64,000 bases of DNA, from NCBI RefSeq assembly GCF_026586625.1, contig NZ_JAODIW010000008.1:615811-679810 (forward strand), in the 5' to 3' direction. The translations under genes were made by a program, and so were the position numbers. Below, in pieces: positions 6,631-23,949 of the stretch; the stretch's first letter is position 1, and each line of letters begins with the position of its first letter. Below the pieces are notes generated by a model. That model did not search any database, was not told the origin of the DNA, and was given only the letters and a program-made list of their open reading frames with translations. Source of the stretch: Halobium salinum (GTDB lineage: Archaea > Halobacteriota > Halobacteria > Halobacteriales > Haloferacaceae).

Positions 6631-6854
6631 CATCCTTCGGAGGCGTCCAAGACGATGCCGAGCCGGGAGCGTCGGAGGCGTGCCCGCTCTGGGCACAGGT
6701 GTACCTGTATCTGTTCGGCGAGTCCGAACGGGAAGACGACGAGTCGGAGACGACACAGGGCCGCCCACGGTCGACAGACGAGGCGGACCGAGAGGGGAGT
6801 GGCCACCGGGCGGGTACAACCCAGCGCCTCGCCGTCGCTCGGCGCTTCGGATAG

Positions 6855-6967
6855 GCCCTGACGGATTCGAACCTCGGTCGTTCCGCTCACTTCGTTCGCT
6901 CCACTCCCTGGTTCGAATCCGCAGCACGTAGGGTTCGGCCCTTCGCTGTCGCTCGGGGCACTCACAC
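6855..6967. repeat. tRNA-derived palindromic repeat, copy a1
   Basis: Begins with the acceptor/T-arm 3' sequence of the tRNA(CAT) gene on the minus strand (GGCCCTGACGGATTCGAACC), continues into CTCGGTCGTTCCGCTCACTT, and closes with an inverted GGTTCGAATCC near 6910-6920. It ends with CTCGGGGCACTCACA. Near-identical copies sit at 10521-10651 and 23950-24063. This is the flank to the left of displaced tRNA half b1. The 220 nt between the flavoprotein and this copy hold an open frame without a start codon and no confident gene. Confidence 0.75.
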
Positions 6968-7120
6968 GGGCCCTGACGGATTCGAACCATCGACCACTCG
7001 ATTATGAGGCGAGACGTGTTCGGAACCGGACGGGTACAGCCGACCCGTGCTCATGGCTACCTAGAGTGGCGTTTTGCCGGCAAGTACTGAGCATTGCTGT
7101 GGAAGGCATGCAACCGAGTG
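6968..7120 (-). repeat. Displaced tRNA(CAT) 3' half plus element end, copy b1
   Basis: On the minus strand this reads as element sequence followed by the 3' half of the tRNA(CAT) gene: anticodon loop with CAT, variable loop, T-arm with GGTTCGAATCC, acceptor AGGGCCC. Homology to the intact gene (24064-24138) covers about 6968-7013 and stops in the anticodon stem. The next ~105 nt is shared with b2 and b3, including a hairpin (ACGGGT/ACCCGT), the perfect palindrome TTGCCGGCAA at 7074-7083 and GGCATGCAACCGAGTG at the end. It is read as an attachment site with one element arm. Confidence 0.8.
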
Positions 7121-7219
7121 CTCCTTGGAACCGATAGTGAGAGCAGTGGTTGTGTGGCCCCCGAAACCGACGAGCGAATTCTCCCACCGGTTTTTGTCTT
7201 CGTCCGACGACACACTAGC

Positions 7220-7612
7220 ATGTCGAAGCCGCAGTACGCCACACCCGTCGACTGGCTCCGAGAGGAGCACGACGACCAACTCCGGTGGGTCGCCTCCTTC
7301 AACAGCAGGAGCCACTCCTACAAAGTCCAGTACATCCGCGAACACCTCGAGACGGAACTCACCGGTCACCAGCCCGACACCATTATCGACCGGTCGATGG
7401 CGGTGTTCAACCGTCGGCACGTCGAAGACGTGTACTCCCACCTCGGCGAAGCGGAGTGTTTCATCGCCCGCCACGAACGGGCAATGGCGGTCCACATCTA
7501 CCTCTCGGACGTAACTGGCGCCGTCGTCAAGCTCGAGCCGGAGGCGTCGGTCACGCTCCCGGACTTCGTCGAGACGTGTCCGGAGAAACTGCACCCGGAG
7601 GGTGTACGATGA
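7220..7612 (+). CDS. Uncharacterised haloarchaeal protein upstream of KhtT-like regulator
   Basis: A 130-residue cytoplasmic protein starting at ATG 7220 (MSKPQYATPVDWLREEHDDQ). The long open frame upstream to 7094 runs through the att repeat and is discarded. Recognisable pieces are a helical N-terminus and a C-terminal strand-rich half (AMAVHIYLSDVTGAVVKLEP). I believe it is one of the small conserved haloarchaeal families without function (DUF7522-like), but I am not certain. Its stop codon overlaps the start of the KhtT-like gene (ATGA), so the two are translationally coupled and probably act together. Confidence 0.6.
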   Translation: MSKPQYATPVDWLREEHDDQLRWVASFNSRSHSYKVQYIREHLETELTGHQPDTIIDRSMAVFNRRHVEDVYSHLGEAECFIARHERAMAVHIYLSDVTGAVVKLEPEASVTLPDFVETCPEKLHPEGVR

Positions 7613-8085
7613 GAGTCTTCGAGACGCAGCTTCCGGGCGTCGGGGACCGGTTCACCGTCGAGTTCGAGGGTGGCGGGGAACTCGTGGTCGTCATCCACAA
7701 CGAAGGGAATCAGGACGTCTACTGGCGGCCGCATCCAGACGACGAGAAAGAGCGCCTGTTCGAGGCCACCGAGCGACAGGCCAGAACTATCGCCGAAATC
7801 TTCGACGGGAGCTACTTCGAGCCCGTCGACGAGACGTTCGAGAACGCGCTCCAAGACGCGGCCGTCGAGTGGGTCGAAGTCGCCGCCAACGCCCCCGTCG
7901 CCGGTCGAACCATCGGCGAGGCCGACATTCGGAGCGAAACCGGCGCCACAGTCCTCGCCATCCGGCGGAGCAGACAGACGTTCTCGAACCCGGACGCCGG
8001 GTTCGGTATCGAGGCTGGCGACGTACTGGTCGTCGTCGGTGACGACGAGGCCCACGACGCGTTGGAACGGTTGCTGGCTGGCTAA
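7609..8085 (+). CDS. KhtT-like regulatory subunit of a cation:proton antiporter (TrkA-C domain)
   Basis: A 158-residue cytoplasmic protein. Residues 1-75 match the N-terminal region of KhtT/YhaT regulatory subunits (MRVFETQLPGVGDRFTVEFE, then VYWRPHPDDE), and about 85-158 is a TrkA-C (RCK_C) domain (VEVAANAPVAGRTIGEADIR ... FGIEAGDVLVVVGDDEAHDA). Such proteins gate K+/H+ or Na+ antiporters in response to ligands. The start overlaps the upstream stop by 4 nt. Downstream, where the transporter subunit would be expected, lies only a broken CaCA exchanger, so this regulator may be orphaned or may act on a transporter encoded elsewhere. Confidence 0.75.
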   Translation: MRVFETQLPGVGDRFTVEFEGGGELVVVIHNEGNQDVYWRPHPDDEKERLFEATERQARTIAEIFDGSYFEPVDETFENALQDAAVEWVEVAANAPVAGRTIGEADIRSETGATVLAIRRSRQTFSNPDAGFGIEAGDVLVVVGDDEAHDALERLLAG

Positions 8086-8118
8086 CTGACTCGTCGGTTC
8101 CGTGAGAGCGAAGGGACG

Positions 8119-8892
8119 ATGGTCGACGGAACTCTCCCTGCCTAGTCGTCTTCGCGCTCAGCGTAGGGGCACTCTGGGCCGGTGCGGAACGTTTCGTCAA
8201 CGACGCGGCGCCCAAGGCGCGCCACTTCGGCCTCTCGGAACTCGTCGTCGGACTCACCGTCGTCGCACTCGGGACGTCCGCCCCGGAGGTCGCGGTCGGC
8301 GTGGACGTCGCATTGGTCGGAACCGGTTACATCGCCGTCGCCGACGTCGTCGGCTCGAATCTCTTCAACATCGGCATCGTCCTCGGAGGCATCGCGGCTG
8401 CCGTCGAGGTTCGGAGCTCCGGTCACGTAGTCCACCGTGACGGCGCCGTGATGGTCGGGTCGCCCGCGTTGGTGCTGGTGTTCCTCCTCGACCTCCGGCC
8501 CACCCGTCTCGTAGGTCTCGTCCTGCTGCTCTACTTCGGAGGGTACCTCACCGCGTTGCTCTTCGGGTCGGGAGGGACCGCCGGTGACGACCACGAGGGG
8601 GACCGGCACCAAGGAAGTCGGTACAGTGGGCGTTCGTCTCGTTGTTCGTGGGCCTCGGCGTCGTCGGTAGCGCGCATTTCCTCGTCGAGTCGGCTGTCTC
8701 CGTCGCCCGTCTCGCCGACTCCTAATAACCCCGCTCTCGGTCGTCGACACCGCTATCGGGACCACGGCGTGGTTGCTGGGGCTCTCGATGTTGACGGCAG
8801 TCCTCCTCGGGACCAGGGGTCGACTCGGTTGCCTCAAAGGAGTCGTCCTCGTGCTGATCAATTCGACCCGGTGGGTACTCGGCCTGCTGTAG
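8119..8892 (+). pseudogene. Broken Na+/Ca2+ exchanger-like (CaCA) membrane protein
   Basis: The ATG at 8119 opens MVDGTLPA, then an in-frame TAG; a frameshift near 8143 restores exchanger sequence (LVVFALSVGALWAGAERFVN ... LVVGLTVVALGTSAPEVAVG ... ADVVGSNLFNIGIVLGG), which carries the alpha-repeat motif GTSAPE and GSNLFN of CaCA/YrbG exchangers. A second frameshift near 8620 leads to VSLFVGLGVVGSAHFLVESA, then a stop near 8727, then a third piece ending at TAG 8890-8892. At least three lesions are visible, so no full transporter can be made. It directly follows the KhtT-like gene and was probably its operon partner. Confidence 0.75.
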
Positions 8893-8920
8893 TATTCTCA
8901 CACGGGACGTGCTCTCCGGA

Positions 8921-10087
8921 TCAGGCGAACCCGCCGCGTGCGAGCCCCTTCGGGTCGCGGCCCCGGATACCCTCGATGACTTCGAGTGCCTCGGTGAGGT
9001 CCGTCTGCGTGACGATACCGATTAGTCGGTCGTCCTCGGTCACCAGCGCACGGTTGGTCCGATTTTCGGAGAACCGCATCAGCACGTCGAAGGCGTCGGC
9101 GTCAGCGTCGATGGTGGCTGGTTCACGGTCCATCACGTCACGAACCGACTTGAAGTACCGCTCGTGGGCGGGCACCGACCGGACGTGGTCGATGGTGGCG
9201 AGCCCGAGGATATCGCCGTCCCGGTCGACAACGGGGTAACCGGTGTGACGTTCGGCGAGCATCCGGTCGACTAACTCTGCGATTGTCAGCTCCGCGTCGA
9301 TGGTCTTGACCTCGCGAGTCATGAGGTCAGATACCTTCACGCCCCGAAGGAGTTCGCGGACGACGGTCGTACGGGATTCGCTGGTCGCTGCGACGTACAC
9401 GAACATCGCGACCAGCACGAGGATGACGTTGAACGTGAACACGCCGAAGATGGCCATGAACAGCGCGAACACCTTCGCGACGCTGGTCGCGATACTCGTC
9501 GCGACGACGTATGGACGTGACCGTGCGAGCAACGCGCGGAGGATTCGGCCGCCGTCCATTGGGAACGCGGGGATCATGTTGAACACCGCGAGCGTGAGGT
9601 TGACCAGCCCGAGCCAACCGAGGACGAACGCCACCATCGGGAGCGACTCGGGGACGAACCGCAGCGAGACGAGACACGCGACTCCGAGCAGGACGCTCGT
9701 GACCGGCCCGGCGAGGGCGATCCAGAACTCCGCGTCCCAGTTTTCCGGAAGCTCCTTGATGTGTGCGAGTCCGCCGAAGATCCACAGCGTGATCATCGAC
9801 GTCTCGACGCGGAAACGTCTCGCCGTGAGAGCGTGACCGAGTTCGTGCAGGAGGACGCCCGCGAACAGCCCCAGTGCCCCGACGACGCCGACGAAGAGGA
9901 GCCCACCGTTCGTGGCTAACGCTGCCGGGTCGATAGTGTACGGCGACAGCAACGAGACGAGCGCCGCGTAGAACCCGAGTTGGTCGGGTCGCGTAATCAG
10001 CCACCCGATGACTGGGAGGAACAGCAAGAGGGTGAGGTTGATGTAAATCGGGATTCCCGAGATAGTCCCGACTCGGAAGCTCTTCAT
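8921..10087 (-). CDS. M50 site-2 protease family membrane metallopeptidase with CBS domains
   Basis: A 388-residue intramembrane zinc protease. Residues 1-235 hold about six membrane segments with the zinc motif HELGH at 81-85 and the third ligand in FPMDGGRIL (Asp178). Two CBS domains follow (about 252-305 and 315-372; DLMTREVKTIDAEL and DVMDREPATIDADA), which usually sense adenosyl nucleotides. This is the standard archaeal SpoIVFB-like layout. It is encoded opposite the broken exchanger, with 28 nt between the stops. The protein looks intact, unlike its neighbours on both sides, so it may be under selection within island E1. The substrate is unknown. Confidence 0.88.
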   Translation of the reverse strand: MKSFRVGTISGIPIYINLTLLLFLPVIGWLITRPDQLGFYAALVSLLSPYTIDPAALATNGGLLFVGVVGALGLFAGVLLHELGHALTARRFRVETSMITLWIFGGLAHIKELPENWDAEFWIALAGPVTSVLLGVACLVSLRFVPESLPMVAFVLGWLGLVNLTLAVFNMIPAFPMDGGRILRALLARSRPYVVATSIATSVAKVFALFMAIFGVFTFNVILVLVAMFVYVAATSESRTTVVRELLRGVKVSDLMTREVKTIDAELTIAELVDRMLAERHTGYPVVDRDGDILGLATIDHVRSVPAHERYFKSVRDVMDREPATIDADADAFDVLMRFSENRTNRALVTEDDRLIGIVTQTDLTEALEVIEGIRGRDPKGLARGGFA

Positions 10088-10162
10088 GCCCTATAGACGA
10101 CCGCTGAGTGAATAAACTAGACAGACGACAGGTGGTTCGGGCCCGCCTCCGACACGTGGCGG

Positions 10163-10446
10163 CTACTGCTCAGGTCGACCCCGGACGCTCAGCACCGGAA
10201 TCGCGGACGACCGGACGACGCGTTCGGCGACACTCCCGAACGCGAGACGTGAGAGTCGACTCCGGCCACGGCTCCCGACGCATCTACGAGGTCTCGCCCC
10301 CGAGCGTCAACTTCGTCGGCCGCACTCTTCCAGGTGTGCGTCGATGCTCCGTGCGTGGTGAATCTTCCCTTGTCGACGACATGAACGACGTGAACCGTCG
10401 CATCGAACGTGGACGCGAGGTCGAGAGCGAAATCGACGGGGGGCAC
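10163..10446 (-). pseudogene. Remnant of a universal stress protein (UspA) gene
   Basis: On the minus strand, VDFALDLASTFDATVHVVHV matches the first helix and second strand of UspA. After an internal loss the end of the fold is found in another frame: FGSVAERVVRSSAIPVLSVR, which matches the UspA C-terminus, before a TAG at 10163-10165. The true N-terminus (start strand and TDGS) and the ATP-binding Gly-rich middle are missing. It is a dead gene next to the M50 protease, and further evidence of decay in island E1. Confidence 0.65.
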
Positions 10447-10520
10447 CCGGAGCCGAGCCCGAGAGCACTCGGCACAGTACTTTGCACTCTCTTTTTATCC
10501 AATTATCCAATGTAGTGACA

Positions 10521-10651
10521 GCTCGGGGCACTCACATAGGCCCTACGGATTCGAACCTCGGTCGTTCCGCTCACTTCGTTCGCTTCACTCCCTGCTTCGA
10601 ATCCTCAGGTCGTGCAGTTCGGTCCCTCGCTGTCGCTCGGGACACTCACAT
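10521..10651. repeat. tRNA-derived palindromic repeat, copy a2
   Basis: A near copy of a1: GCCCTACGGATTCGAACC, CTCGGTCGTTCCGCTCACTT and an inverted CTTCGAATCC, ending in CTCGGGACACTCACATGA. It is preceded at 10521-10537 by GCTCGGGGCACTCACAT, the tail of yet another copy, so two units were once in tandem. Position: immediately left of displaced tRNA half b2, which makes it the right arm of island E1. Confidence 0.7.
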
Positions 10652-10806
10652 GAGCCCTGACGGATTCGAACCATCGACCACTCGGTTATGAGGCGAGACG
10701 TGTTCGGAACCGGACGGGTACAGCCGACCCGTGCTCGCGGCTACCTAGAGGACCGTTTTCCCGGCAAAGAGTGTAAGCATTGCTGTGCAAGGCATGCAGC
10801 CGAGTG
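10652..10806 (-). repeat. Displaced tRNA(CAT) 3' half plus element end, copy b2
   Basis: Same build as b1: tRNA 3' half (about 10652-10697, anticodon loop TTATGAG in + orientation) and then ~105 nt of shared element end with the ACGGGT/ACCCGT hairpin, AGCATTGCTGTGCAAGG and GGCATGCAGCCGAGTG. The TTGCCGGCAA palindrome is damaged here (TTCCCGGCAA), and the acceptor begins GAGCCC instead of GGGCCC, so this copy is not under tRNA selection. Confidence 0.8.
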
Positions 10807-10832
10807 CTACTCAGGTGCTGTACAGCGTAGCA

Positions 10833-11186
10833 TCAGCCGAGGTAGTCGATGAGCGACTGAACCGCGTCGTCGACGACCGAATCGTCCAGTGTTCCTTGCC
10901 AGTGGTCGATGTCCCCACTTCCAATCGACTGGACGCTCCACGGGACGACGCGACTCTCGGCAGGCGTTCCACCGCGAACCCAACTCGCTTCGGGAATCTC
11001 GATGAAGTCCTCGTGCCACGTCTTCGTCGTCAGGGTCAGCGCGATGTACTGGTCGCCGTGAAACGGCTGTCCCTCGTGATTCGAGACGACGAGCCACGGA
11101 CGAGCAGCTTCTCCACCTTTGAACGGGTCGTCACCGTAGACGACATCACCGGGTTCGTAAGTCGGGGACGGCTCTTCGTCCGTCAC
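10833..11186 (-). CDS. PemK/MazF-family toxin
   Basis: A 117-residue SH3-like PemK/MazF protein. Hallmarks: EPGDVVYGDDPF near the N-terminus, the RPWLVVSN strand, and a QYIALTLTT strand before the variable C-terminus. MazF toxins cleave mRNA; whether this one does is inferred. Its ATG (11186) overlaps the stop of the upstream winged-helix gene by 4 nt, the usual antitoxin-then-toxin order. It is the first gene inside island E2, next to the att repeat, a position where addiction modules are often found. Confidence 0.75.
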   Translation of the reverse strand: MTDEEPSPTYEPGDVVYGDDPFKGGEAARPWLVVSNHEGQPFHGDQYIALTLTTKTWHEDFIEIPEASWVRGGTPAESRVVPWSVQSIGSGDIDHWQGTLDDSVVDDAVQSLIDYLG

Positions 11187-11554
11187 TCCGTATCCTCCAG
11201 ACTCGGATGTGGCTCTTCAGGGGCGTGTTCCTGCCACTCGTCCTTGTTCTCACGGCCGAGCCGTTCGTTGTAGAGCGCCGTCGCGCGTTCGTAGCCACTG
11301 TACGACCGAAGTCGGTCGTCGTCGGTCGTTACGGCCCAGTAGGTCGCCTTGTGTTCGACGAGGCCGCGTCCCTTCAGCCGAGTCAGTGCGGTACTTACTG
11401 CGCTCTCGTCGGGGTCCGTCTGGGCTGCGATCTCGCGTGCTTGGAACGCACGGTCATCGTGTGCGACGAGGAATCCGAGAACCTGGTCCGGAACGGAGAG
11501 TTCCGTGAGTTCGTCTTCGCTCGTGTTCTCGAAGGTTTCCCGGTCGATCGACAT
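11183..11554 (-). CDS. MarR-like winged-helix protein, probable antitoxin of the MazF pair
   Basis: A 123-residue protein with a winged helix-turn-helix at about 20-85 (VPDQVLGFLVAHDDRAFQAR ... AVSTALTRLKGRGLVEHKAT), which resembles MarR/TrmB domains, followed by a charged C-terminal tail (DEWQEHAPEEPHPSLEDTE) that could wrap the toxin. It is coupled to the MazF-like gene by an ATGA overlap. The pairing of this type of regulator with PemK/MazF is common in haloarchaea; autoregulation of the operon is likely but inferred. Confidence 0.65.
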   Translation of the reverse strand: MSIDRETFENTSEDELTELSVPDQVLGFLVAHDDRAFQAREIAAQTDPDESAVSTALTRLKGRGLVEHKATYWAVTTDDDRLRSYSGYERATALYNERLGRENKDEWQEHAPEEPHPSLEDTE

Positions 11555-11758
11555 CGTCGAGTGAAAGTAACGGAGCCTACGGTAAGAGTGTAACTAGTGA
11601 AATCGCTGTGAATCAGGTACAGGCCGGCCGTCACTTCTCGTTACCTCTATCGTAATATCGACTACCGGACAACAGTCGCGTGAAACGCACAGAGAGCGTA
11701 TTCACCACCGGGATCGAGCTAATACGGAACTCGGTGAAAACTCTCCGTCGACACTCCG

Positions 11759-11932
11759 TCACTTCTTCTCTTTGACGACCGGGAAGAGTTCCATATCCCA
11801 GTCGTAGTCGCCATTCGTTGATCGAAGTACGTACCCTCCTTCGATGTCGAGGCCGTTCGACTCTGCGCCGTGAATGAGGGCTTCTATTCGCTCGGCGAAC
11901 TCCTCCTTGGTCTGCGGTGCTTTGGAGGTCAT
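11759..11932 (-). CDS. Small acidic protein (57 residues)
   Basis: The frame MTSKAPQTKEEFAERIEALI ... EGGYVLRSTN ... WDMELFPVVKEKK fits a compact folded protein with a helix and then strands. A TATA-like CATAAAC (11957-11963 on the + strand, read on the minus strand) lies about 28 nt before the ATG, so a leaderless transcript is likely and supports the start. Related small proteins occur in haloarchaea, but I do not recognise a named function. The remaining ~200 nt toward the MarR-like gene holds nothing else visible. Confidence 0.55.
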   Translation of the reverse strand: MTSKAPQTKEEFAERIEALIHGAESNGLDIEGGYVLRSTNGDYDWDMELFPVVKEKK

Positions 11933-12092
11933 TGCTATTTATTAGATAGCTTGTCGCATAAACGTCGTTCCTAACGAGTCGAGTATGACGACCTCGGATA
12001 CGAGAGGAACGTCGCTATCGGCTCCCTCGGGTCCGAATCGTCTCTGCCCACATTCGTGGAACTCTGACCCGAAAGAGCACTCGCTGTGGTCG

Positions 12093-12755
12093 TCAGTATC
12101 GGTCCGAATCCGTCTCGAACACGTCCGCCTCGACGAGGCGTTCGATTCCGCGTCGAAGGCGCTGGGAGAGCGCCGAGTCCGAGATACCCATCTCCTCTGC
12201 GAGGGAGGTCAAAGACGCCCTACGTGGAACTTTGAAATAGCCGGCGCTGTAGGCTCGCACGAGTGCTTCCCGCTGGGGCGGCGTGAGCTTGGTCTCCCTA
12301 CCTTCTGTCGGCGGCACCGCCGGATTGTGAATCGACCTGACGTCCAGCGAGATTCCTCGGTCGGTCGCTCGTTGTTGAAACTCCGACGCCAGTTCGTGGT
12401 CTGCGAAGCGAGTCACGAACCGCCATTCGTCGTTCCGACCGACGGCTTCGAGAACCGTCGCCTCCGTCTCGACCAGGCACTCGATGAGGCCGCCGACCTC
12501 TTCGCGAAACTCGATGCGGTACAACGACTCGTCGTTCCCCGTGACGAGTTTCTCGGCGTCGACGACGTCGGGGTCCGAGACGAGCCTGTAGCCGATACCG
12601 TCCGAGTCGTCCCCCGAGACCCAGATGAACGGTGAGACGACGTTGCCCAAGGGAACTACGCGTTCGATGTGGACCGTCGTTTCGGGGTTGTCAGCCAGCA
12701 ACTGTCCGAACACGAACTCGTCCGCCGACACGGTCAACGTGACTGTGACTGTCAT
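12093..12755 (-). CDS. BAT/HTH-10 family transcriptional regulator
   Basis: A 220-residue one-component regulator. The N-terminal ~150 residues form the BAT-type sensory domain (MTVTVTLTVSADEFVFGQLL ... VETEATVLEAVGRND), and the C-terminal HTH-10 (Bacterio-opsin activator) DNA-binding domain spans about 160-215 (LTPPQREALVRAYSAGYFKV, then SLAEEMGISDSALSQRLRRG). It lacks the PAS/GAF modules of larger paralogues in this window. The ligand and target genes are unknown. Encoded on the minus strand between a small acidic protein and a second regulator. Confidence 0.82.
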   Translation of the reverse strand: MTVTVTLTVSADEFVFGQLLADNPETTVHIERVVPLGNVVSPFIWVSGDDSDGIGYRLVSDPDVVDAEKLVTGNDESLYRIEFREEVGGLIECLVETEATVLEAVGRNDEWRFVTRFADHELASEFQQRATDRGISLDVRSIHNPAVPPTEGRETKLTPPQREALVRAYSAGYFKVPRRASLTSLAEEMGISDSALSQRLRRGIERLVEADVFETDSDRY

Positions 12756-12819
12756 CGGCTTCTTCGGGTCCCCAGCACTACGTCGAGGCCGACTACATCT
12801 GCTGTGAGAGATGGTGTGT

Positions 12820-13389
12820 TCACGGCCATCCGCTGGGAAGTTCGTCCCGATGGTCGTGCATCAACCGAAGCAGTGGCGCGATGTCCTCGAAGTTCGGCCC
12901 CCGTCGAATCGTTTCGGTGTCTTCGTTCCACTCGATGTAGCCTGCGTCGGCTAACTTCGGGAGATGTATTCGGTACAGTTCGTCGGTGAGCATCTCGAGG
13001 TCGTCGTCCTCGGTCGCCAACTCGTCGACGGAGAACTCGTCTTCGTCACGAGGATTGTGCTCACTTACGAGTAAGAGGATACGGCGACGATACGGGTGTC
13101 CGAGTACGTCGAACATCCTATCGAGGTGACGGGGTGTCTCACTCCCGTCTGTCATGATGGTGGCCGGCGGAGCGGCAAGAACGTCCGTTCCCAACAGGGC
13201 CGCACGTATCCCCTTCCGTATCGTCCGGGAGACATCGACTGTCGGTTGGTCGAGGTCGTCGGCGACGTCGACTAACGATGCCGCTCTCGGGTCGTCGAAG
13301 TAGCCGAGTTCGAGCGCACGTCGAAGGGTTTCTCGTTCCTTGGCGGTCAACTCGGTCGGATGTTCCGTATCTGATGTCCTCATTTTCAT
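12820..13389 (-). CDS. Two-domain regulator: HTH-10-like helix-turn-helix plus DUF7344 winged helix
   Basis: A 189-residue protein with two DNA-binding-type domains. Residues about 13-70 resemble HTH-10 (LTAKERETLRRALELGYFDD, SLVDVADDLDQPTVDVSRTI). Residues about 90-185 match the haloarchaeal DUF7344 winged helix (MFDVLGHPYRRRILLLVSEH ... YRIHLPKLADAGYIEWNEDT). An internal ATG at about 13155 could start the second domain alone. It sits between the BAT regulator and the giant PAS/GAF regulator, all on the same strand. The target is unknown; local control of these neighbours is a guess. Confidence 0.7.
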   Translation of the reverse strand: MKMRTSDTEHPTELTAKERETLRRALELGYFDDPRAASLVDVADDLDQPTVDVSRTIRKGIRAALLGTDVLAAPPATIMTDGSETPRHLDRMFDVLGHPYRRRILLLVSEHNPRDEDEFSVDELATEDDDLEMLTDELYRIHLPKLADAGYIEWNEDTETIRRGPNFEDIAPLLRLMHDHRDELPSGWP

Positions 13390-13556
13390 TGGGTTCTCTG
13401 AGCGATGGTTCGGGACGGTACCAGCCGGGTGGTTTTAGCTGATTCCCAGGGTGAGCTGAGTACCGAGAGTAGTGCGTGAGGCGAAAGCGTTCGTTCTAGA
13501 ATATCGGAGTCGGAACTACCGTGTATCGTGATGATGGGAAACTGGCTGTCGACTCG

Positions 13557-16500
13557 CTACGACGAATTCGGCTCCGTCCCTTCTGACTCGGCGGGAGTGG
13601 TCTCGTCGAAGAGGAACTCACAGAGCTTTCGCTCGGCTTCTCGCAAGTGATACGAGAACGTCGACTGAGAGATGTCCAAGAGCTCGGTGACGTCCGTCGC
13701 CGAGTTCACACGCGGGGACTCGAAGAACCCGCTCCGGTAGGCCGTCTGGAGGACTTCTCGCTGTCTGTCGGTCAGTTCAGCACCGATCACGGCCGAGATC
13801 GTCTGCTGGGTCGAAGGCACCCGCTGACGAGTCCTGCGTGTGAGAAGCTCGAGCTCGGGATAGAACGTACGTAGGTCGTCGAGGAGCGCACCGACTTCGA
13901 CGGAACTCGAGAGATCGACGACGGCCGTCGCAGTCCCCGCGTCGACCGTGAGCGAGCGGACCACCGCACCGCCAGCGACCAGTCGTGAGGCGATCGTCGG
14001 CTCGACCACCCGAGCCTTGAACAGCGTCTCGTCCGCACGCTCTAGAACTGTCTGTACAGTATCGAACACGAGGAGCTGCTCGGCGACGGAGCGGACCCTC
14101 TCCGCCGACGTCTCGCTCACCGTGAAGAACACGTCCGGTTCGCCGTCCGAGCGAGAGACGAGTCCCTCGAATTCGATTACGCATTCGGCGCGGCGCGAGA
14201 GCTGGCAGAGCGGTGTGTTCGCCTCCGGGAACCGAAGCGTGAGTTCGACCACCGTGTCCGTCTGCCGCGTCGTTGCAGTCTCGGTCGCAGTGATGGCGTG
14301 AGCGATGGTCTGCCCGAGCTCCGCCAACACCTCGGTTTCGCGCTCGTCGGGCTGTGGGGTCCGTCCGTACACCACCAGAACGCCGAAAACCGACCCCCGG
14401 TACGAGAGCGGGACCGCGACAAGCGAGCGTGCACCCCCTTCGAGCGCCAACTTCCGCCAATCCGCTGCCCGACTGTCCGTTGCGATGTCGGAGACGGTCT
14501 GCATCTCGCCGCTCCGGACAGTGGCCGTGAACGGGTTCGTCTCTGGCGTCGACGAGTGTGACGCGTCGATGAGTGTTTCCAGCCGGTGGCTCTCGATACC
14601 CGCCCACGCTCGCGGTTCGACCGACTCCGTCCCCGCGTCGTAGTCGCCGATCCACGCGAACCCGAACAGTTCCGAGCCCGCCAGTTGATTACAGACCGCT
14701 TCGTCGATTTCATCGACAGTACTGGCCCTCACGAGTCCTTGGTCGATTGCCCGAATGAGCGTGTTGAGGCGGTCGAGCCGGGTCAGCTCCTCGTTCCGTT
14801 GTGCTAGCTCCTGCTCGCTGTCGGCGCGATCCCACGTGGTCTTGACGGTGGAGACGACCATCTGCAGGAGGTCGAGGAGCCGAGTGTCGAACGTCTCGGA
14901 GTCCTCCGAGCCAACACAGACCACGCCGTGCCGGCCTAACGGCGCGAACACTCGACTTCCCAGCCCCGACGGCCACGGGTCACCGTCAGCGATGTCGAGC
15001 GCATTCTCGACGTTGAGTTCGTCACCGACGAACGTCTCCCAGACCTGCCCGTGGGAGACCTCCGCCGGACGAATCGCATCGAAGTCGGTTCCGGGGACCG
15101 CGTGTTCGGTGTCCAGTTCGATGTCGCCAGTCCGCGCGTCGTACCTCCAGAGCGCTGCGTACTCGACGTCGAGGACATCGACGACGAGTTGAGCCACCCT
15201 CTCGCTGATCGTCTCCGGGTCGGCGTCGATCAGCTGACGACTCACGTCGTTGAGTCGTTCGAGGGACTGATTGGAGCGAGTCAGCGCCTGCTCGGCGCGG
15301 GCGCGTTCCACCACCGTCCAAGTACGGTCCGCTACCTCCTCTAGCAGTGATATTTCGGCGACGGTCCAGTCGTGTGAATCGCTGTAAACCGCGTACAACG
15401 CCCAGTCTACACCTTCCTCGTCGGTCCGGATCGGCGCGCCGATCCAGGCACCGAAATCGAGTTCGAGGAGCGCCTGCCGTTCTGCCTCGGGGAGCGTCGA
15501 ATCGTTCGCGACGTCGTGGTATACGGGCGTCTCCGTCCCGATCTGTTGGATGGCTTCTGGAAAGGCCGAGAACGGGTACAGGCCGCTGACCGGGTCAAGG
15601 GTGGAAGAATGGTACTCCGGCCCGACCAGCGCCTCTTCGGCGTCGGCGTCGAACCGGACGAAGTAGGCCCTGTCGAGTCCCAACTCCTCGGCGAGCAGTC
15701 GCGTACAGGCCTCCCCGATCTCCTGCTCGGTGGTGAGTGTGTGTAGCTGGTCGCTGAGTTCGAGCAGGAACTGTTCGTGCTTCTCTCGGCGCTTGCGCTC
15801 GGTGATGTCGTCGTACAGCGCGGCGATCACGTCCCCCTCGCGGGGGAATAGGCGCACGTCGTACCACCGGTCGTTCGCGGGGACGTAGGTCTCGACACGC
15901 TCGGGCTCGCCCGTCTCGACGACTCCTCGGCACTGCTCGAAGAGGGACTCGTCCTGTCCGGGGAACACCTCCGTCAAGAGCCGCCCTTCCGCGTCGGTCC
16001 GACCGACGCCGGTCAGCTCCTCGAAGGCTTCGTTCAGCTCGAGATACTGCAGATCACTAACCGTTCCGTCGGCGTCACGAACGAGTTCACAGAGGGCGAA
16101 CCCTTCGTCGATCTCCTCGAACAGCGAGCGATATTTCTTCTCACTCTCCTCGAGAGCCTCGTAGGCCGCCCGCTGCTGCATGAGGTCGGCGACCTGCCGG
16201 GAGATCACGTCCAGTAAGTGGAGGTCTCGCTCGGACGGCTCGTGCGTGTCCGCCCAGTGAGTCGAGAACATTCCGAGTAGCTCTCCGCTTCGCGAGACCA
16301 GCGGCGTGGACTGCACCGATCGGATTCCGGCCCGGTTGAAGGCTTCGAGGTCGTCGCCGTCTTCGATGAACTCGCACGACTGGACGTCCGGAACGACGAC
16401 GCGCTCCTCCGTCTGCAGGGCTCTCGCACAACTGCTCGACGTTTCGACACCGACCCGGTCCCAGTGCGCGATCATCTCTCCCGAGAATCCCCGGTAGGCG

Positions 16501-18746
16501 AACATGTCGAGTTCGCGCGCCTGGGGGTCGAGTCGCTGTATCGTCCCGAACTCGGCGTCCACGAGGTCCATACCGGTGTCGAGAACCGATTCGTACAGGC
16601 CATCACCGTCGTCGTGCTGGATCGACCGGGTGCTGACCTCCTGGAGTTGCTTCATTGCCTCCAGTTCGGCAGCGAGTTTCTCTTCGGCCTGTGCCCGCTG
16701 GACTGCCTCCCAGGTCCGGTCGACCGTCTCTTCGAGCAAGGCGATGTCCGCCTCAGTCCACTCCCGGGGCACGGAACTGGTCACCGCCATGACCACCGCC
16801 GGCTCGCCGTTTTTGACCAGGGGAGTCGACAGCGTGGCACGAACCCCGCGTTGGGCCATCCCGGTCCGTTCACTCTCGCTCAACGCGGGGTCACGTTCCG
16901 CGTCGTTTACGATGAGCGAGCGACGACCGAGCCACGCTTCCGCGTGCGCCGGAAAGTCGTCGAAGTGGTATTCACCCACGAGACTCGGGAGCTCGTCGAC
17001 GTCTTGTCCGCCCCGGTAGTAGTCTCGCGTGATGTCGATGACCGCTCGGTCGAGATCGAGCTCGCCGTACTGCGCTCGCTTGACGTCGAGATGCTCGCCC
17101 AAGACGCGACACGCTTCCTCCTGGATCGCTACCGGATCGGTGAGCGAGCGGAGCGCATCGTTCAACTCGACCAGATAGGACTGCCGTTCCTCGCTCTCGC
17201 GGAGTTTCTCTTCTATCTCCTTGCGCTCGGTGATGTCGATACCAGTCCCGAAGACGCGAACCGCCCGCCGGTCCTCCCCGTCTCCCTCGAAGAACACCTC
17301 GCCGTTCGTGAGCACCCACCGTTCGCTCCCGTCGGGACGCGTCGCTCTAAACTCGAACTCGTAGTCCCCGCTAGACTCGGACTCGAACACCTCTTCCAAT
17401 CGGTCGACGACCCATTCGTGGTCGTCCGGATGGACGCGCTCCTCGAGCAACGCTGGGCCGACGATAGTCTCGTCCTCGTCGTATCCGAACAGCTCGTTCA
17501 TTCGCTCGTTTCCACTCACGAGACCCGTCTCGAGATTCCACTCGAAGACAGCGACGTTCGCGATGTCGGTCGCGAGTCGAAGCCGCTTTTCGCTCGTACG
17601 TAACGCTGTTTCGGTCTCCTTTCGCTCGGTAACGTCCTGAAAGACGACGGCCACCCGTCGGGGCCCCGCCCCCTCGGGCCTGAACACGTAGAAGTCGTAC
17701 CAGATGCCGTCCGGCTCGGTGTACAGTTCGTGTCGCTCGTCCTCACCCGTTGTGGCGACGCGGCCGAACACCTCGTACAAGTACTCCTCGTAGTCTGTAT
17801 CGATCTCGGTCAGCCAGCGCCCCTCGAACTCTTCGCCGACCATCTCGGTCGCCGCCGGGTTCGAGTCTCGATAGAAGATGTCGAGTGGCTCACCGTCGCT
17901 GTCGAAGACCACGTCGGCCAGGAAGAACCCCTCGTCCATCGAGTCCAGAACGGTCTGATAGCGCCATTGGGTCTCCTGTTTGCGTTTCTGAAGCGCTGCC
18001 TCAGCTTTCACGCGGCCGGTGACCTCCACCGAGACGTTGAACACTCCACCGATGGACCCGTCCGCGACTGGGATAGGGTTGAAACTGGAATCGAACCAGA
18101 CGTCCTCCACTGTCTCACCACGTTCGAGCGGGAGGTACTTCTCTTCGACTCGAACTGCTCCCTCCCCGGCCATCACCTGCTCGTGCATCGAAGCGAGCGT
18201 CTCCCACGCCTCCGGAAACACCTCGCGAGCAGGCCGTCCGAGTGCATCCGGGTGTTTCTTCCCGATTTGCTCCCGCGCAGCGTCGTTGTACAGCAGTATG
18301 AGGTCCGTCCCCCAGTAGATGCCAATGGCCTCATCGGACCCCAGCATGATGTCGACGGCGACCCGCAATTCGGGAGGCCACTCGTCTATCGGACCAAGTG
18401 GCGTGCTGGCCCACTCGAACTCTCGGATACGCTCGGCCATTTCGCTATCGACAGTAGACGAGGGTGCCTGCCCATCTCGGAGTGAGACCGGGTGAAGTCG
18501 GTCACGAGCGCCACCGTTCCGTAGGGCATCACCGTCGACGGGTCGCCACCAGACGCGACTTTTCGCACCGACCTTCTTGGTCTGTAGAATTCCGTCGTCG
18601 ACGAGCGCGTCCAATCGGTTGTAGATGGTCCGCTGGGTGCAGTCGAACCCGTCGGCGACTTCCGGAGTCGTCACCGGGGTGCCGGGTGGGCCGAGAGCGT
18701 CGACCTTCTCCAGCACGTCTTCGGGCGCTGGTGTGGCCGGTGTCAT
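13557..18746 (-). CDS. Giant PAS/GAF multi-sensor regulator with DNA-binding domains at both ends (1729 aa)
   Basis: A single open frame of 1729 residues. Order, roughly: N-terminal winged helix (10-70, TTPEVADGFDCTQRTIYNRL); PAS (110-245), PAS (265-375) and PAS (385-510), the last two ending in DVTERK/DITERK motifs; GAF (520-690); GAF (710-850); PAS (875-990, DDITERK); GAF (1000-1150); GAF (1165-1310); GAF (1335-1485); BAT-type domain (1495-1640); HTH-10 (about 1655-1715, LTDRQREVLQTAYRSGFFES). No histidine kinase, ATPase or receiver domain is seen, so it should act as a one-component regulator integrating several signals. Usual HTH-10 sensors are 500-1000 residues. The ligands (light, redox, small molecules) cannot be read from sequence. 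Confidence 0.85.
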   Translation of the reverse strand: MTPATPAPEDVLEKVDALGPPGTPVTTPEVADGFDCTQRTIYNRLDALVDDGILQTKKVGAKSRVWWRPVDGDALRNGGARDRLHPVSLRDGQAPSSTVDSEMAERIREFEWASTPLGPIDEWPPELRVAVDIMLGSDEAIGIYWGTDLILLYNDAAREQIGKKHPDALGRPAREVFPEAWETLASMHEQVMAGEGAVRVEEKYLPLERGETVEDVWFDSSFNPIPVADGSIGGVFNVSVEVTGRVKAEAALQKRKQETQWRYQTVLDSMDEGFFLADVVFDSDGEPLDIFYRDSNPAATEMVGEEFEGRWLTEIDTDYEEYLYEVFGRVATTGEDERHELYTEPDGIWYDFYVFRPEGAGPRRVAVVFQDVTERKETETALRTSEKRLRLATDIANVAVFEWNLETGLVSGNERMNELFGYDEDETIVGPALLEERVHPDDHEWVVDRLEEVFESESSGDYEFEFRATRPDGSERWVLTNGEVFFEGDGEDRRAVRVFGTGIDITERKEIEEKLRESEERQSYLVELNDALRSLTDPVAIQEEACRVLGEHLDVKRAQYGELDLDRAVIDITRDYYRGGQDVDELPSLVGEYHFDDFPAHAEAWLGRRSLIVNDAERDPALSESERTGMAQRGVRATLSTPLVKNGEPAVVMAVTSSVPREWTEADIALLEETVDRTWEAVQRAQAEEKLAAELEAMKQLQEVSTRSIQHDDGDGLYESVLDTGMDLVDAEFGTIQRLDPQARELDMFAYRGFSGEMIAHWDRVGVETSSSCARALQTEERVVVPDVQSCEFIEDGDDLEAFNRAGIRSVQSTPLVSRSGELLGMFSTHWADTHEPSERDLHLLDVISRQVADLMQQRAAYEALEESEKKYRSLFEEIDEGFALCELVRDADGTVSDLQYLELNEAFEELTGVGRTDAEGRLLTEVFPGQDESLFEQCRGVVETGEPERVETYVPANDRWYDVRLFPREGDVIAALYDDITERKRREKHEQFLLELSDQLHTLTTEQEIGEACTRLLAEELGLDRAYFVRFDADAEEALVGPEYHSSTLDPVSGLYPFSAFPEAIQQIGTETPVYHDVANDSTLPEAERQALLELDFGAWIGAPIRTDEEGVDWALYAVYSDSHDWTVAEISLLEEVADRTWTVVERARAEQALTRSNQSLERLNDVSRQLIDADPETISERVAQLVVDVLDVEYAALWRYDARTGDIELDTEHAVPGTDFDAIRPAEVSHGQVWETFVGDELNVENALDIADGDPWPSGLGSRVFAPLGRHGVVCVGSEDSETFDTRLLDLLQMVVSTVKTTWDRADSEQELAQRNEELTRLDRLNTLIRAIDQGLVRASTVDEIDEAVCNQLAGSELFGFAWIGDYDAGTESVEPRAWAGIESHRLETLIDASHSSTPETNPFTATVRSGEMQTVSDIATDSRAADWRKLALEGGARSLVAVPLSYRGSVFGVLVVYGRTPQPDERETEVLAELGQTIAHAITATETATTRQTDTVVELTLRFPEANTPLCQLSRRAECVIEFEGLVSRSDGEPDVFFTVSETSAERVRSVAEQLLVFDTVQTVLERADETLFKARVVEPTIASRLVAGGAVVRSLTVDAGTATAVVDLSSSVEVGALLDDLRTFYPELELLTRRTRQRVPSTQQTISAVIGAELTDRQREVLQTAYRSGFFESPRVNSATDVTELLDISQSTFSYHLREAERKLCEFLFDETTPAESEGTEPNSS

Positions 18747-18964
18747 ACGGTGGCCACGCTACGGGCGAGTAAAAGCGTTCTGTGGATGGAAAACGTATCG
18801 CCAGTTCTCGGAGGTATAGACGGGTATCTCGGAACGACGGACCTTCGGACAGCAACCCAGTACGAGGAACTCAGATTCAAGAACTGAGTGGCGACGGAAC
18901 GTGGAGAGGTGCCGAGACGGTTCGTTTCGTATGTCATCAGGCGCTGGTGCAGTGGCCGCAAGCG

Positions 18965-19066
18965 CTCGGCTCGGTGCCTTGCGCTCCGACTTATATGTAC
19001 TGTCAGGATCGGAGAGAACTCGGCTAATCGATCTCAGAACTCGAATCGCCGAAAATCGGGACGTAT
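18965..19066. repeat. Island end flank, copy c1
   Basis: About 102 nt beginning CTCGGCTCGGTGCCTTG and ending AATCGGGACGTATGG, shared with 23848-23949. It contains a TATA-like TTATATG and the block TCGGAGAGAACTCGGCT. It abuts displaced tRNA half b3 and is read as the right arm of island E2. The ~220 nt between the giant regulator and this flank contain no gene that I can support. Confidence 0.7.
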
Positions 19067-19220
19067 GGGCCCTGACGGATTCGAACCATCGACCACCGGT
19101 TATGAGGCGAGACGTATTCGGAACCGGACGGGTACAGCCGACCCGTGCTTACGGCTACCTGAACCGTTGATTTGCCGGCAAGTAGTGTAAGCACTGCTGT
19201 GCAAGGCATGCAACCGAGTG
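19067..19220 (-). repeat. Displaced tRNA(CAT) 3' half plus element end, copy b3
   Basis: Same build as b1 and b2. The tRNA part covers about 19067-19110 with a one-base loss in the anticodon stem (ACCACCGGTTATGAG). The shared element end follows, with the GACGGGTACAGCCGACCCGT hairpin, palindrome TTGCCGGCAA at 19172-19181, AAGCACTGCTGTGCAAGG and GGCATGCAACCGAGTG. The three b copies agree much better with each other than with anything else in the window. Confidence 0.8.
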
Positions 19221-19302
19221 GTCTTCGCGGCCCAATTCTGGAGGCCTACTCCGACACCCCGACACGAGTGAGGTTTAGTCAGTCGATGACAAAGGGTCGC
19301 CA

Positions 19303-22176
19303 ATGGTGACGGCGACAGGTCCCTCGAAACCCCTCTCCGACCGACTATCCGTCCTCGTCGTCGATGCAGCGACCGACGGAAACGATGTCTATAGACACCT
19401 CGTCGGAACCGAAGGGATCACCGCGACTAGAGTTACGAACGGTTCGGACTGTCTCGCTCGGCTCGGTTCACGGGGAGAGACAGTCGACTGCATTCTGCTC
19501 ACCGACGACCTCGCAGAAATGCCATCTACCGAACTAATCGAGGAGGTTCGGGAGGAACACTCGGGGATACCGGTGGTGCTGGTGGCAACAGAGGGTAGCG
19601 AAGACCTCGCGAGTCGTGCGTTGGCCGCCGGGGCCACCGACTACCTCCCCGCAGATGCAATCGGCGACGACTTCGATGTAGAACTCCGTAATCGGTTGAC
19701 GCGGGCTGTAACGACCTATCGAGCCAGGAGAGAGACGACACGGCACGCAAATCAGTTCGACGCGCTGTTCGACGATCAAGATACGTTCCTCTGGGTGGTC
19801 GGAACGGACGGTCGAATCAGCCAGGTCAACGATACGGCGACGGCAGCCGTCTCGGAGAACAGAGCGAATCTACTCGGCACGCGATTCGAGAAGTCGCGTT
19901 GGTGGGACGGCTCCAGAACCGACCGAGAGACGGTCGAGAACGCGTTTCGGTCCGCGATGGACGGGGACGTCGTTCGGTTCGAGACCGATGTCCGAGCGGC
20001 CGAGCGGTTCGTGGAACTCGACCTCTCGTTTCGGCCAGTAACCAATGGAGTCGGTGAGGTAACCAGCGTCATCGTCGAGGGGACGGACATCAGCGAACGT
20101 GTCCAACTGGAACGGGACCTTCGGCAGTCGGAGGAACTCCACCGGGTCACGCTCAACAACATGACCGACACGGTCCTCGTGACCGACGACGAGGGTGCGT
20201 TCACCTACATCTGTCCCAACGTCCACTTCATCTTCGGCTACTCGGCCGGGGAGATTCGAGAGATGGGGAACATCGACGAGGTGCTCGGTGCGGACCTGTT
20301 CGAGGACGAAGAGCTCGAATCGGAAGGTGTCCTCACGAACGTCGAGTGTACCGCGACCGACAAACGAGGGCGCGAACACACACTTCTGGTGAACGTTCGG
20401 GACGTCTCGATTCAGGGCGGAACGACCCTCTATAGTTGCCGTGACATCACGAAGCGGAAGGAACGAGAACGCGCACTCACCGCTCTCCACCGGACGAGCC
20501 GTAACCTCCTGTACGCGGAGACTGAGGCGGAGGTCGCCGAGATAGCGATCGATGACGCGACCGAAATCCTCGACCTGGACGCCTGTGGCGTCTACCTCTT
20601 CGATTCCGAGGCGAACGAACTGTGGCCGGCGGCGGTGACCGGTCGGCGGTTATCCGAATCTGTCTCGCGGCTGAGCTTGGAAGAACCAGGCCCCTCCGGA
20701 GAGGCGTTCGTGGAACAGACGGCACGACGGTTCGGCGAAGGTAACCGAGGTGTCGGGGGGACTGCTCCCGACGTCGCCTTCGACGAGGGGATAGCCGTCC
20801 CACTGAGCGACCACGGCGTTCTCGTGGTCGGCTCCGACGGCCCCGAGGGGTTCGACAGCGTGACGGAAGAGATCGTCGATCTGCTCGCCGCGACGACCGA
20901 AGCGGCCCTCGACCGCGTCGAGCGGGAGACGGAACTGAGAGAACGAGACGTGGAGCTCGAACAGCGGAACCGCCAACTCCTCGAGCTCGACCGGACGAAC
21001 GAGATCATCAGGGAGATCGACCAGACGCTGATCGCGGCGGACTCGCGTGCCGAGATCGAACACGCCGTCTGTGATCGGCTCACCGGAGACGGCCGGTTCG
21101 CGTTCGCGTGGGTCGGCCGTGTCGAACCCGGGTCGGATCGAGTACATCCGAAAGCCTGGTCCGGGGACGGACGAGGCTATCTCGACAGCGTCCGACTGTC
21201 GAAGACCGAGAGTCGGGAACCATCCGTGCTGGCGACTACAGATGGCGACACGACTGTGGTTACGAGTGTCGGGAAGGACCTCTCTACAGCTCCGTGGCGG
21301 AGGGAAGCGCTCTCCAGAGGGTACCAATCCGTCGTGAGCGTACCACTCTCGCGCGGCGATGCAGCGTATGGCGTACTCACCGTGTACGCCGACCGGCCGG
21401 ACGCGTTCGAGGACCGTGGGACGGCAATCCTCTCCGAACTCGGCGAGACGACTGCCGCCGCGATTCAAGCCATCGAACGAAAGGAGGCCCTCGTCAGCGA
21501 CCAGGTGACCGAACTCGACTACCGTCTCACCGACTCGAACTGCGTCTTTCGGACGATGGCCGCCGCAGCGTCGTGCGACATCGAACTGGTCGGCGGCGTA
21601 CAGCAGACGGAGCACGGCGTTCGACTGCTGGCCAGCCTCGACTCGGCGGAACTGCGCCACGCTATCGAAGCGATGGACGAACTCACGCAGATACAGTCGG
21701 TTCGACTCGTATCCGACGACGAGTGCCTGATACAGGTGACGATAGCTGGGGAGTTCGTCGCGACGTTCTTGGCGGAACACGGAGCCGCCGTCGAATCGCT
21801 ACGTGCGACTCCGGATGCGGCTCACCTCTCCGTCGTCGTTCCACGACCCGTCGACGCTCGAACGATAGACCGTGTACTCACCGGACGGTATCCGAACGCG
21901 GAACTCCTCGCACAGCGCACGAACGACCGACCTGCTCTCACAGGTGGACGGTTCCGGGCGCGTATCACCGACCGGCTAACCGACCGGCAGCTGGAAGTCG
22001 CACAGATGGCCCACCACAGCGGGTACTTCGAGACTCCACGACGAAACGGCGGTGAAGAGGTCGCGAATCGTCTGGGAATCTCCTCGACCGCCTTCTACGA
22101 CCACGTCCGGAACGTGCAGCAGAAACTCTTCACAGAACTGTTCAGCGAAACGCAGACCCACCGAGTCGAGGGTTGA
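19303..22176 (+). CDS. Receiver/PAS/GAF/HTH-10 transcriptional regulator (957 aa)
   Basis: A one-component-like regulator. Order: receiver-type fold (about 12-135, LSVLVVDAATDGNDVYRHLV ... AAGATDYLPADAI) in which the conserved Lys appears lost; PAS (145-268) ending DISERV; PAS (275-388) ending DITKRK; GAF (395-545); GAF (565-725); BAT-type domain (735-885); HTH-10 (about 893-950, LTDRQLEVAQMAHHSGYFET, GISSTAFYDHVRNVQQKL). No kinase domain. It shares the GAF-GAF-BAT-HTH-10 back half with the giant regulator of island E2, which suggests common descent. It is followed by the zinc ribbon and glutamate dehydrogenase genes, which are possible targets (inference). Confidence 0.85.
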   Translation: MVTATGPSKPLSDRLSVLVVDAATDGNDVYRHLVGTEGITATRVTNGSDCLARLGSRGETVDCILLTDDLAEMPSTELIEEVREEHSGIPVVLVATEGSEDLASRALAAGATDYLPADAIGDDFDVELRNRLTRAVTTYRARRETTRHANQFDALFDDQDTFLWVVGTDGRISQVNDTATAAVSENRANLLGTRFEKSRWWDGSRTDRETVENAFRSAMDGDVVRFETDVRAAERFVELDLSFRPVTNGVGEVTSVIVEGTDISERVQLERDLRQSEELHRVTLNNMTDTVLVTDDEGAFTYICPNVHFIFGYSAGEIREMGNIDEVLGADLFEDEELESEGVLTNVECTATDKRGREHTLLVNVRDVSIQGGTTLYSCRDITKRKERERALTALHRTSRNLLYAETEAEVAEIAIDDATEILDLDACGVYLFDSEANELWPAAVTGRRLSESVSRLSLEEPGPSGEAFVEQTARRFGEGNRGVGGTAPDVAFDEGIAVPLSDHGVLVVGSDGPEGFDSVTEEIVDLLAATTEAALDRVERETELRERDVELEQRNRQLLELDRTNEIIREIDQTLIAADSRAEIEHAVCDRLTGDGRFAFAWVGRVEPGSDRVHPKAWSGDGRGYLDSVRLSKTESREPSVLATTDGDTTVVTSVGKDLSTAPWRREALSRGYQSVVSVPLSRGDAAYGVLTVYADRPDAFEDRGTAILSELGETTAAAIQAIERKEALVSDQVTELDYRLTDSNCVFRTMAAAASCDIELVGGVQQTEHGVRLLASLDSAELRHAIEAMDELTQIQSVRLVSDDECLIQVTIAGEFVATFLAEHGAAVESLRATPDAAHLSVVVPRPVDARTIDRVLTGRYPNAELLAQRTNDRPALTGGRFRARITDRLTDRQLEVAQMAHHSGYFETPRRNGGEEVANRLGISSTAFYDHVRNVQQKLFTELFSETQTHRVEG

Positions 22177-22312
22177 CTATCCAACCCACCTAACGACTTC
22201 CACCGGATAATCCAACTGGTTGCTTCAGGGGCTCTCGCAAATACTGCCAACCGTGGTTCCGCTCGGACAGCACGACGACCGAGAGTCGAGCGGGGAAAAT
22301 ACCACGAACTCC

Positions 22313-22456
22313 ATGAGAGACATCGAATACGACCCGACAACAGAGACGGCGTACGAATGTTTGAACTGCGGAACTGTAATCTCCGTTTCGACCTCTCCGG
22401 GCCGGTGTCCGGACTGTGACGGCTCCCTCCGCAACCGCGAGATGCCGTTCGAGTAG
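22313..22456 (+). CDS. Rubrerythrin-like zinc-ribbon protein (47 aa)
   Basis: A 47-residue protein with one rubredoxin/zinc-ribbon knuckle pair: CLNCG at about 16-20 and CPDCDG at 32-37. These tiny rubrerythrin-like domain proteins are widespread in haloarchaea. A four-cysteine metal site is expected; the role is unknown. I chose the ATG at 22313 because the longer frame upstream lacks coding character. The stop is 14 nt before the glutamate dehydrogenase start, so the two probably share a transcript. Confidence 0.65.
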
Positions 22457-22470
22457 TCGGGCGCGAAACC

Positions 22471-23781: not shown

Positions 23782-23847
23782 GTTGTTCTCGTTCGGCTTC
23801 TTTCGCCAGGTGTGTCTTCCGGTGTTGCTCCGAGCCCGTCTTCAACA

Positions 23848-23949
23848 CTCGGCTCGATGCCTTGTCCTCTGACCTATATGCACTATCCGGGTCGGAGAGA
23901 ACTCGGCTGATTACTCTCAGAATGCGGAACGCCGGAAATCGGGACGTAT
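23848..23949. repeat. Island end flank, copy c2
   Basis: Second copy of the ~102-nt flank seen at 18965-19066: CTCGGCTCGATGCCTTG, TATATG, GTCGGAGAGAACTCGGCTGA and AAATCGGGACGTATGG. It differs from c1 at scattered positions. Here it abuts repeat a3 instead of a b copy, so the right end of island E3 holds both types of arm. Confidence 0.7.

Follow-up and report, generated by a model that had tools for sequence, protein, structure and literature searches.

A conserved arm beside displaced tRNA-Met halves in Halobium salinum, probably the P arm of a haloarchaeal attP

The window analysed here, a stretch of 64,000 nucleotides from the haloarchaeon Halobium salinum, contains three displaced 3' halves of tRNA-Met, running from the anticodon stem to the 3' end, and each of them adjoins a conserved arm of 114–116 nt. 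What such an arm does is the question that the locus raises, and an earlier note, made from the letters alone, left it between recombinase arm sites and a small structured RNA. Here the arm is read as the P arm of attP in a haloarchaeal element family that integrates into the anticodon region of tRNA genes, and this reading, with the full mechanism proposed below, is given a probability of about 0.88 from sequence comparison. The tRNA, its displaced halves, the islands and the arms are as follows.

24064–24138, minus strand: intact tRNA-Met(CAU), the integration target, with the island stack on its 3' side
6968–7013, minus strand: displaced tRNA-Met 3' half at b1, anticodon loop at 7002–7008
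10651–10697, minus strand: displaced tRNA-Met 3' half at b2
19066–19111, minus strand: displaced tRNA-Met 3' half at b3
19107–24063: island E1, with a PAS/GAF/HTH_10 regulator and a Glu/Leu/Phe/Val-type dehydrogenase, without integrase
10693–19106: island E2, with a MarR-like winged-helix (wHTH) and PemK-like pair, HTH_10 regulators and a PAS/GAF regulator, without integrase
7009–10692: island E3, with a TrkA-C protein and an M50 (site-2-type) protease with CBS domains, without integrase
7009–7122, minus strand: putative P arm b1, 114 nt with a 2-nt deletion, end of island E3
10693–10808, minus strand: putative P arm b2, 116 nt, end of island E2
19107–19222, minus strand: putative P arm b3, 116 nt, end of island E1

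The arrangement is that of islands integrated into a tRNA gene, with the intact tRNA at one end and a displaced 3' half in the same orientation at the other, and it recurs in Haloferax marisrubri SB3 (G030), Halogranum rubrum CGMCC 1.7738 (G044) and a genome of another family (G314). Outward from the tRNA the order is tRNA, E1, b3, E2, b2, E3, b1. Across the tRNA from the islands, the gene at 24417–25892 is kept beside tRNA-Met in other haloarchaea, which makes the 3' side of the tRNA the variable, insertion side. As the earlier note had said, the cargo is unrelated from island to island, except that E1 and E2 have large regulators that match at 36% as proteins. None of E1–E3 carries an integrase: tblastn with five related integrases gave a best E of 5.2 in the islands. 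The whole genome holds no relative of the integrase at E 1e-20, and the one match obtained there (29% over 144 residues, E 1.3e-7) lies in another tyrosine recombinase. Without an integrase of their own or a close relative of it elsewhere in the genome, the islands are either stranded or dependent on an integrase supplied in trans. E1–E3 would represent three elements of the family that entered one after another at the tRNA and later lost their integrases.

In several haloarchaea, and at more than one tRNA, the tRNA or its half is followed by a unit of about 115 nt that is of the GCGAACGAAGTGAGCG type and finishes with the tRNA 3' end in a second copy (for example GGTTCGAATCCGTCAGGGCCCAT). In the window it occupies 6853–6969, 10537–10655 and 23951–24063, and elsewhere it is found at L100:1119-1222, at L103:9680-9869 and beyond the half in L106. 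It seems to be a repeat of tRNA 3' ends in its own right.

Arms b1, b2 and b3 are read on the minus strand towards the displaced half, and they share 99–103 matches over 116 columns. The conserved arm claimed by the earlier note is therefore real at each half, but its actual extent is about 10 nt longer than the ~105 nt given there. A search of the own genome found a fourth arm on contig C2 (94%), and the four arms have 99–108 of the 116 columns (85–93%) in common. The C2 arm adjoins only CTCATAACCGAG and no whole tRNA half. It is located at G000 contig C2:292055-292169 (L019:12054-12169), about 215 nt from tRNA-Arg(TCG), with non-tRNA sequence beyond CTCATAACCGAG, and its position is perhaps a secondary integration site or the product of a later deletion.

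Such closeness within one genome is what would be expected if the arms were alike only through recent duplication of the islands, and relatives in other genomes bear on this. Among 170 genomes of the family, two more carry strong arms (H. marisrubri and H. rubrum), and G043 carries a partial arm. Some arm match at E 0.01 is found in 10 of the 170, the others being short stretches; the short, partial DNA matches L012–L018 were excluded from every alignment. A model of six arms built from sequence only (R1) was searched over 392 genomes of the order; G043, 84 nt long owing to a deletion, was excluded from this model and from the second one (R2). At E 0.05 the R1 model matched 17 of the 392 genomes, including the own genome, G030 and G043. 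Its best new match, gap-free and with E 5e-4, is in G314, and lies exactly 116 nt before the loop CTGATAA of a displaced 3' half of tRNA-Ile(GAT); an intact tRNA-Ile with matching orientation stands at a distance of 9 kb. The model contained no tRNA-Ile sequence, and an arm beside a tRNA-Ile half means that the arm belongs to the element and not to the tRNA. The G314 arm has no integrase between it and the tRNA, and no P' motif (the inverted copy described below) was found there; its island seems, from the look of the translated frames, to carry phosphate-transport genes. The tRNA T-loop was at the expected place in none of the 59 other weak matches inspected (13 + 26 + 20; a few places recur). 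Model R2 matched 226 of the 392 genomes at E 0.5, matches taken to be nearly all noise, and none of the 46 listed places inspected adjoins a tRNA T-loop.

The distance from the outer motif to the anticodon loop is exactly 116 nt in b2, b3, the C2 arm, G030, G044 and G314, which align in 116 ungapped columns, and it is 114 nt in b1 and 84 nt in G043. Per 116 columns, b2 shares 80 identities with G030, 74 with G044 and 63 with G314, and G030 and G044 share 74 with each other; shuffled sequences give means of 30–32 and maxima of 46–50. Homologues from Haloferax, Halogranum and another family thus keep motif and spacing at 47–72% identity, far above shuffles, and the island cargo is unrelated. Recent duplication as the sole cause of the likeness is already contradicted by these comparisons and scarcely credible. 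Because the arms of the own genome are closely related, the independent lineages with a full arm number about four.

Conservation within the arm is uneven. When a column is counted as conserved if at least three of the four lineages (b2, G030, G044, G314) are equal, columns 1–10, 21–34 and 61–77 reach 10/10, 14/14 and 15/17, whereas columns 35–60, with the palindrome inside, are poorly conserved (9/26). What is kept is the outer motif (CAAGGCATNNANCCGAGTG), an inner block and the spacing. The outer sites, together with the hairpin and the palindrome pointed out by the earlier note, are placed in the window as follows.

7102–7120, plus strand: outer arm site of b1, GAAGGCATGCAACCGAGTG
10788–10806, plus strand: outer arm site of b2
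19202–19220, plus strand: outer arm site of b3, whose AACCGAGTGGTC (to 19223) is identical to the right half of the core
7030–7048, plus strand: hairpin ACGGGT/ACCCGT (b1), overlapping the inner conserved block TCGGYTGT.ACC; pairing not conserved
7074–7083, plus strand: palindrome TTGCCGGCAA (b1), perfect in 2 of 6 arms

The earlier note's description of these elements was accurate for the window. Each of the three copies has ACGGGT and ACCCGT 7 nt apart, b1 and b3 have a perfect TTGCCGGCAA (b2 has one mismatch), and the words at the outer edge are exact or nearly exact in every copy. The presence of the hairpin in all three would suit an arm that specifies a small RNA kept for its structure, and RNAalifold draws 22 pairs, 3 of them with change on both sides. 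Its covariation term is unfavourable (+0.61). Only 2 of the 6 hairpin pairs are kept in G030 and 3 of 6 in G044, without compensatory change; hairpin cells are paired in 80.6% of cases compared with 79.1% in shuffles. Six single folds give z-scores of -1.06 to 0.64 and are no better than shuffles, and the two both-sided changes in the palindrome pairs are reached by 52 of 500 shuffles, a slide by one column scoring higher on covariation. No Rfam family matched at threshold; below it came a tRNA match that covers the half, and two families that are implausible. The 116-base stretch is most likely not an RNA, and a conserved RNA fold is a very improbable reason for the conservation of the arm. 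The earlier note had tied its reading to conservation of the hairpin or palindrome beyond the age of recent duplication; neither is conserved that far, but the arm itself is. Of its two suggestions, a small structured RNA is not supported, but recombinase arm sites are: in three other genomes the arm lies beside the crossover region of tRNA-integrating elements at a fixed spacing, and an inverted copy of its outer motif is found across the core.

The sites of that inverted motif, called P', are placed in the window as follows.

23846–23864, minus strand: P' arm site of E1 (CAAGGCATCGAGCCGAGTG), inverted relative to P
18963–18981, minus strand: P' arm site of E2 (CAAGGCACCGAGCCGAGCG)
10466–10484, minus strand: possible degenerate P' site of E3, weak, with a shuffle p of 0.037 and a spacing of 201, not 119

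Across the 64 kb, the motif AAGGCATNNANCCGAGTG with up to 3 mismatches has 5 matches against 0.81 expected, a count reached in none of 100 shuffles, and all five are at element ends: three at the outer arm edges and two at the opposite island ends. An inverted copy of the outer motif stands 118–120 nt past the loop in five elements (E2, G030, G044, G043 and G192), and in E1 it is 234 nt past the loop, with a 3'-end duplication of about 115 nt intervening. The test used a consensus built from P arms only, and its shuffle p is 0.000 for E1, E2 and G043, 0.002 for G030, 0.005 for G044, 0.027 for G192 and 0.037 for E3. The motif is missing downstream of b1 (p 0.64) and in G062 (0.98) and G311 (0.97). 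Control loci came from an order-wide DNA search with a query that included the tRNA core and matched 249 of 392 genomes, mostly at tRNA-Met itself; of 28 tRNA-Met loci (L023–L050), only 19 had an exact GCTCGGCTCATAACCGAG and enough flank. In 18 of these 19 there is no P' motif at that place (at least 9 mismatches), and the 19th is G043's own. The motif is thus repeated on both sides of the core at a fixed distance, as in a lambda-type attP.

The integrase that the islands of the window lack is found in their relatives. In H. marisrubri and H. rubrum a homologous arm forms one island end and tRNA-Met the other, with a XerA-like tyrosine integrase coming immediately after the tRNA; the two integrases are 72% identical. 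The island ends of H. rubrum sit on two contigs, C8 and C9, so that the continuity of this island is inferred. Related integrases follow tRNA-Met in G062 (52%) and in G192, of another family (46%); at E 1e-20 integrase matches occur in 3 of the 392 order genomes, namely G030, G062 and G192. In G030, G044, G062 and G192 the integrase lies inside the element. Reading of G062 revealed no P-arm similarity at the distal half and no recognisable P' motif, and the lack of arm motifs beside an integrase at 52% means that the arms either diverge fast or are specific to a subfamily.

Other integrases were noted at the same kind of locus. In both the H. marisrubri (L052:11422-12393) and the H. rubrum (L057:9415-10311) island there is one more integrase of the same kind, and these two are 57% identical. 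In Candidatus Methanohalarchaeum thermophilum (L083:6321-12440) a truncated relative of the G030/G044-type integrase is located between tRNA-Met and a displaced half 6 kb off. G311 (L055:7652-16730) has a different tyrosine integrase (~422 aa) beside tRNA-Met, a displaced 61-nt tRNA copy 9 kb off and no arm motif; it is an unrelated element on the same tRNA.

Which protein would bind the outer sites is a further matter. The integrases are 275–284 aa long, and their closest family model is archaeal XerA (structures PDB 4a8e and 5hxy); NF040815 scores 183 to 227 bits against a cut-off of 220, with one of the four integrases above it. They match a catalytic domain and a SAM-like core-binding domain, the latter above threshold in two of four. 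A lambda-type N-terminal arm-binding domain was not found, the XerA model starting at residue 11–12 and the SAM-like domain at 9–11 of 275–278; a SAM-like domain that starts near residue 10 leaves no room for one. The outer motif can itself be read as a degenerate core (CAAGG-7-CCGAGTG or CAAGG-7-CCGAGTGG, compared with the core CTCGG-7-CCGAGTGG). The best 22-nt core match falls on the outer motif in all eight P arms and in five of the seven P' regions with an element, although the full-core shuffle p is below 0.05 in only four of the eight arms and one of the seven P' regions, and that one (G043) matches off the motif. A core-like outer motif, together with the lack of a separate arm-binding domain, leads to the inference that the outer sites are extra core-type integrase sites, which the same core-binding integrase would bind.

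The chief rival to binding by the same protein is an accessory DNA-binding protein, excisionase-like, MarR-like or a host factor, that would occupy the attP arms in place of the integrase. Two genes next to the arm of E2 are relevant to it.

10833–11186, minus strand: PemK-like gene beside the P arm (E2), Pfam 22.1 bits against a cut-off of 23.1
11183–11554, minus strand: MarR-like winged-helix gene paired with the PemK-like gene (E2), 123 aa, 26.5 bits against a cut-off of 27

E2 and the H. rubrum island have 954 bp in common at 82%, adjacent to the arm and including this pair. The PemK-like homologue in H. rubrum is in the same place (85% identical), and the MarR-like one (88% identical) is there above the Pfam cut-off. 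A MarR-like protein of 123 aa therefore stands beside the arm in both E2 and H. rubrum, while G030 and H. rubrum share a 100 aa wHTH-like protein (74%, below the Pfam cut-off), and a MarR-like helper is described for SNJ2 (PMC8371274). Together with the lack of a visible arm-binding domain in the integrase, this gives an accessory winged-helix protein some claim, but no single such gene is common to all arm-bearing elements and the outer motif resembles the core. It is a possible but less probable binder than the integrase.

In the mechanism proposed, with the arm as the P arm of attP, the XerA-like tyrosine integrase of 275–284 aa would carry out strand exchange at the anticodon loop or close to it (CTCATAA, with CTCGG/CCGAG on its flanks), where the crossover is presumed to fall. 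The P arm would supply the inner block and an outer site beginning 95 nt ahead of the loop, and would act jointly with the inverted outer-site copy, which begins about 119 nt beyond the loop. The outer sites, as degenerate copies of the core, may then assemble or steer the recombination complex. A more speculative and rather doubtful extension is that the arms are a mobility tag, by which islands without an integrase could be moved in trans by a co-resident one, as haloarchaeal satellites whose attP has duplicated core sites and not lambda-type arm sites. Under such an extension the islands would keep P, and mostly P', because the integrase of a co-resident element can still move them. The islands without integrase differ in cargo: one has a dehydrogenase plus a sensor, another the PemK/MarR pair plus sensors, a third a protease, and that of G314 the apparent phosphate-transport genes.

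An origin from a virus or plasmid was looked for by sequence, a comparison suggested by the earlier note, and was rejected, as no phage or plasmid has an arm match. Relatives of the integrase in phages and plasmids are all below 60% identity (24–35% among the matches listed). In viral contigs neither a relative of the integrase nor a match to the P' word was found. The bare outer motif occurs in eight viral contigs, none of which is matched by the arm model, and it is therefore treated as chance there.

The literature search found nothing on arm-type integrase sites in haloarchaea or on the integrase of Haloferax marisrubri, although absence from print is not proven by it. For archaeal att sites, a review of archaeal tyrosine recombinases states that a definition by strict identity between element and chromosome is inoperative and that nucleotides outside are needed (PMC8371274). 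The arm is a defined candidate for such extra sequence, with its outer sites, inner block and spacing kept across genera and two tRNA targets. It also offers a sequence tag for finding islands that lack an integrase.

XerA is a chromosomally encoded recombinase that resolves dimers. The integrases described here resemble archaeal XerA, which provides their nearest family model and solved structures (NF040815, 4a8e, 5hxy), and differ from it in standing beside tRNA genes on islands. As in phage lambda, the attP would be asymmetric, with sites repeated on both sides of the core. Lambda Int has a separate N-terminal arm-binding domain and its arm sites are unlike the core, whereas no separate arm-binding domain is seen in the integrases here and the outer motif is core-like. 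Arm binding by a separate domain, and also attP size, are covered in the review of archaeal tyrosine recombinases (PMC8371274).

A functional analogy, with no homology claimed, can be drawn with the attI1 site of class 1 integrons, where a Xer-like recombinase uses supplementary repeats (DR1/DR2) beside the core. These integrase-binding repeats have been proposed as topological filters (PMC8946536). Integron sites are not in tRNA genes, and the DRs are direct repeats beside the site, in contrast to the inverted copies about 100 nt off on both sides that are found here. The pleolipovirus SNJ2 has tRNA-Met as its target. Like the elements described here it is haloarchaeal and has a tyrosine integrase, which works with the MarR-like helper mentioned above; compared by description, its att is 13–14 nt and stem-loop-free according to the review (PMC8371274), while the stretch shared here spans about 46 nt and includes the anticodon stem-loop.
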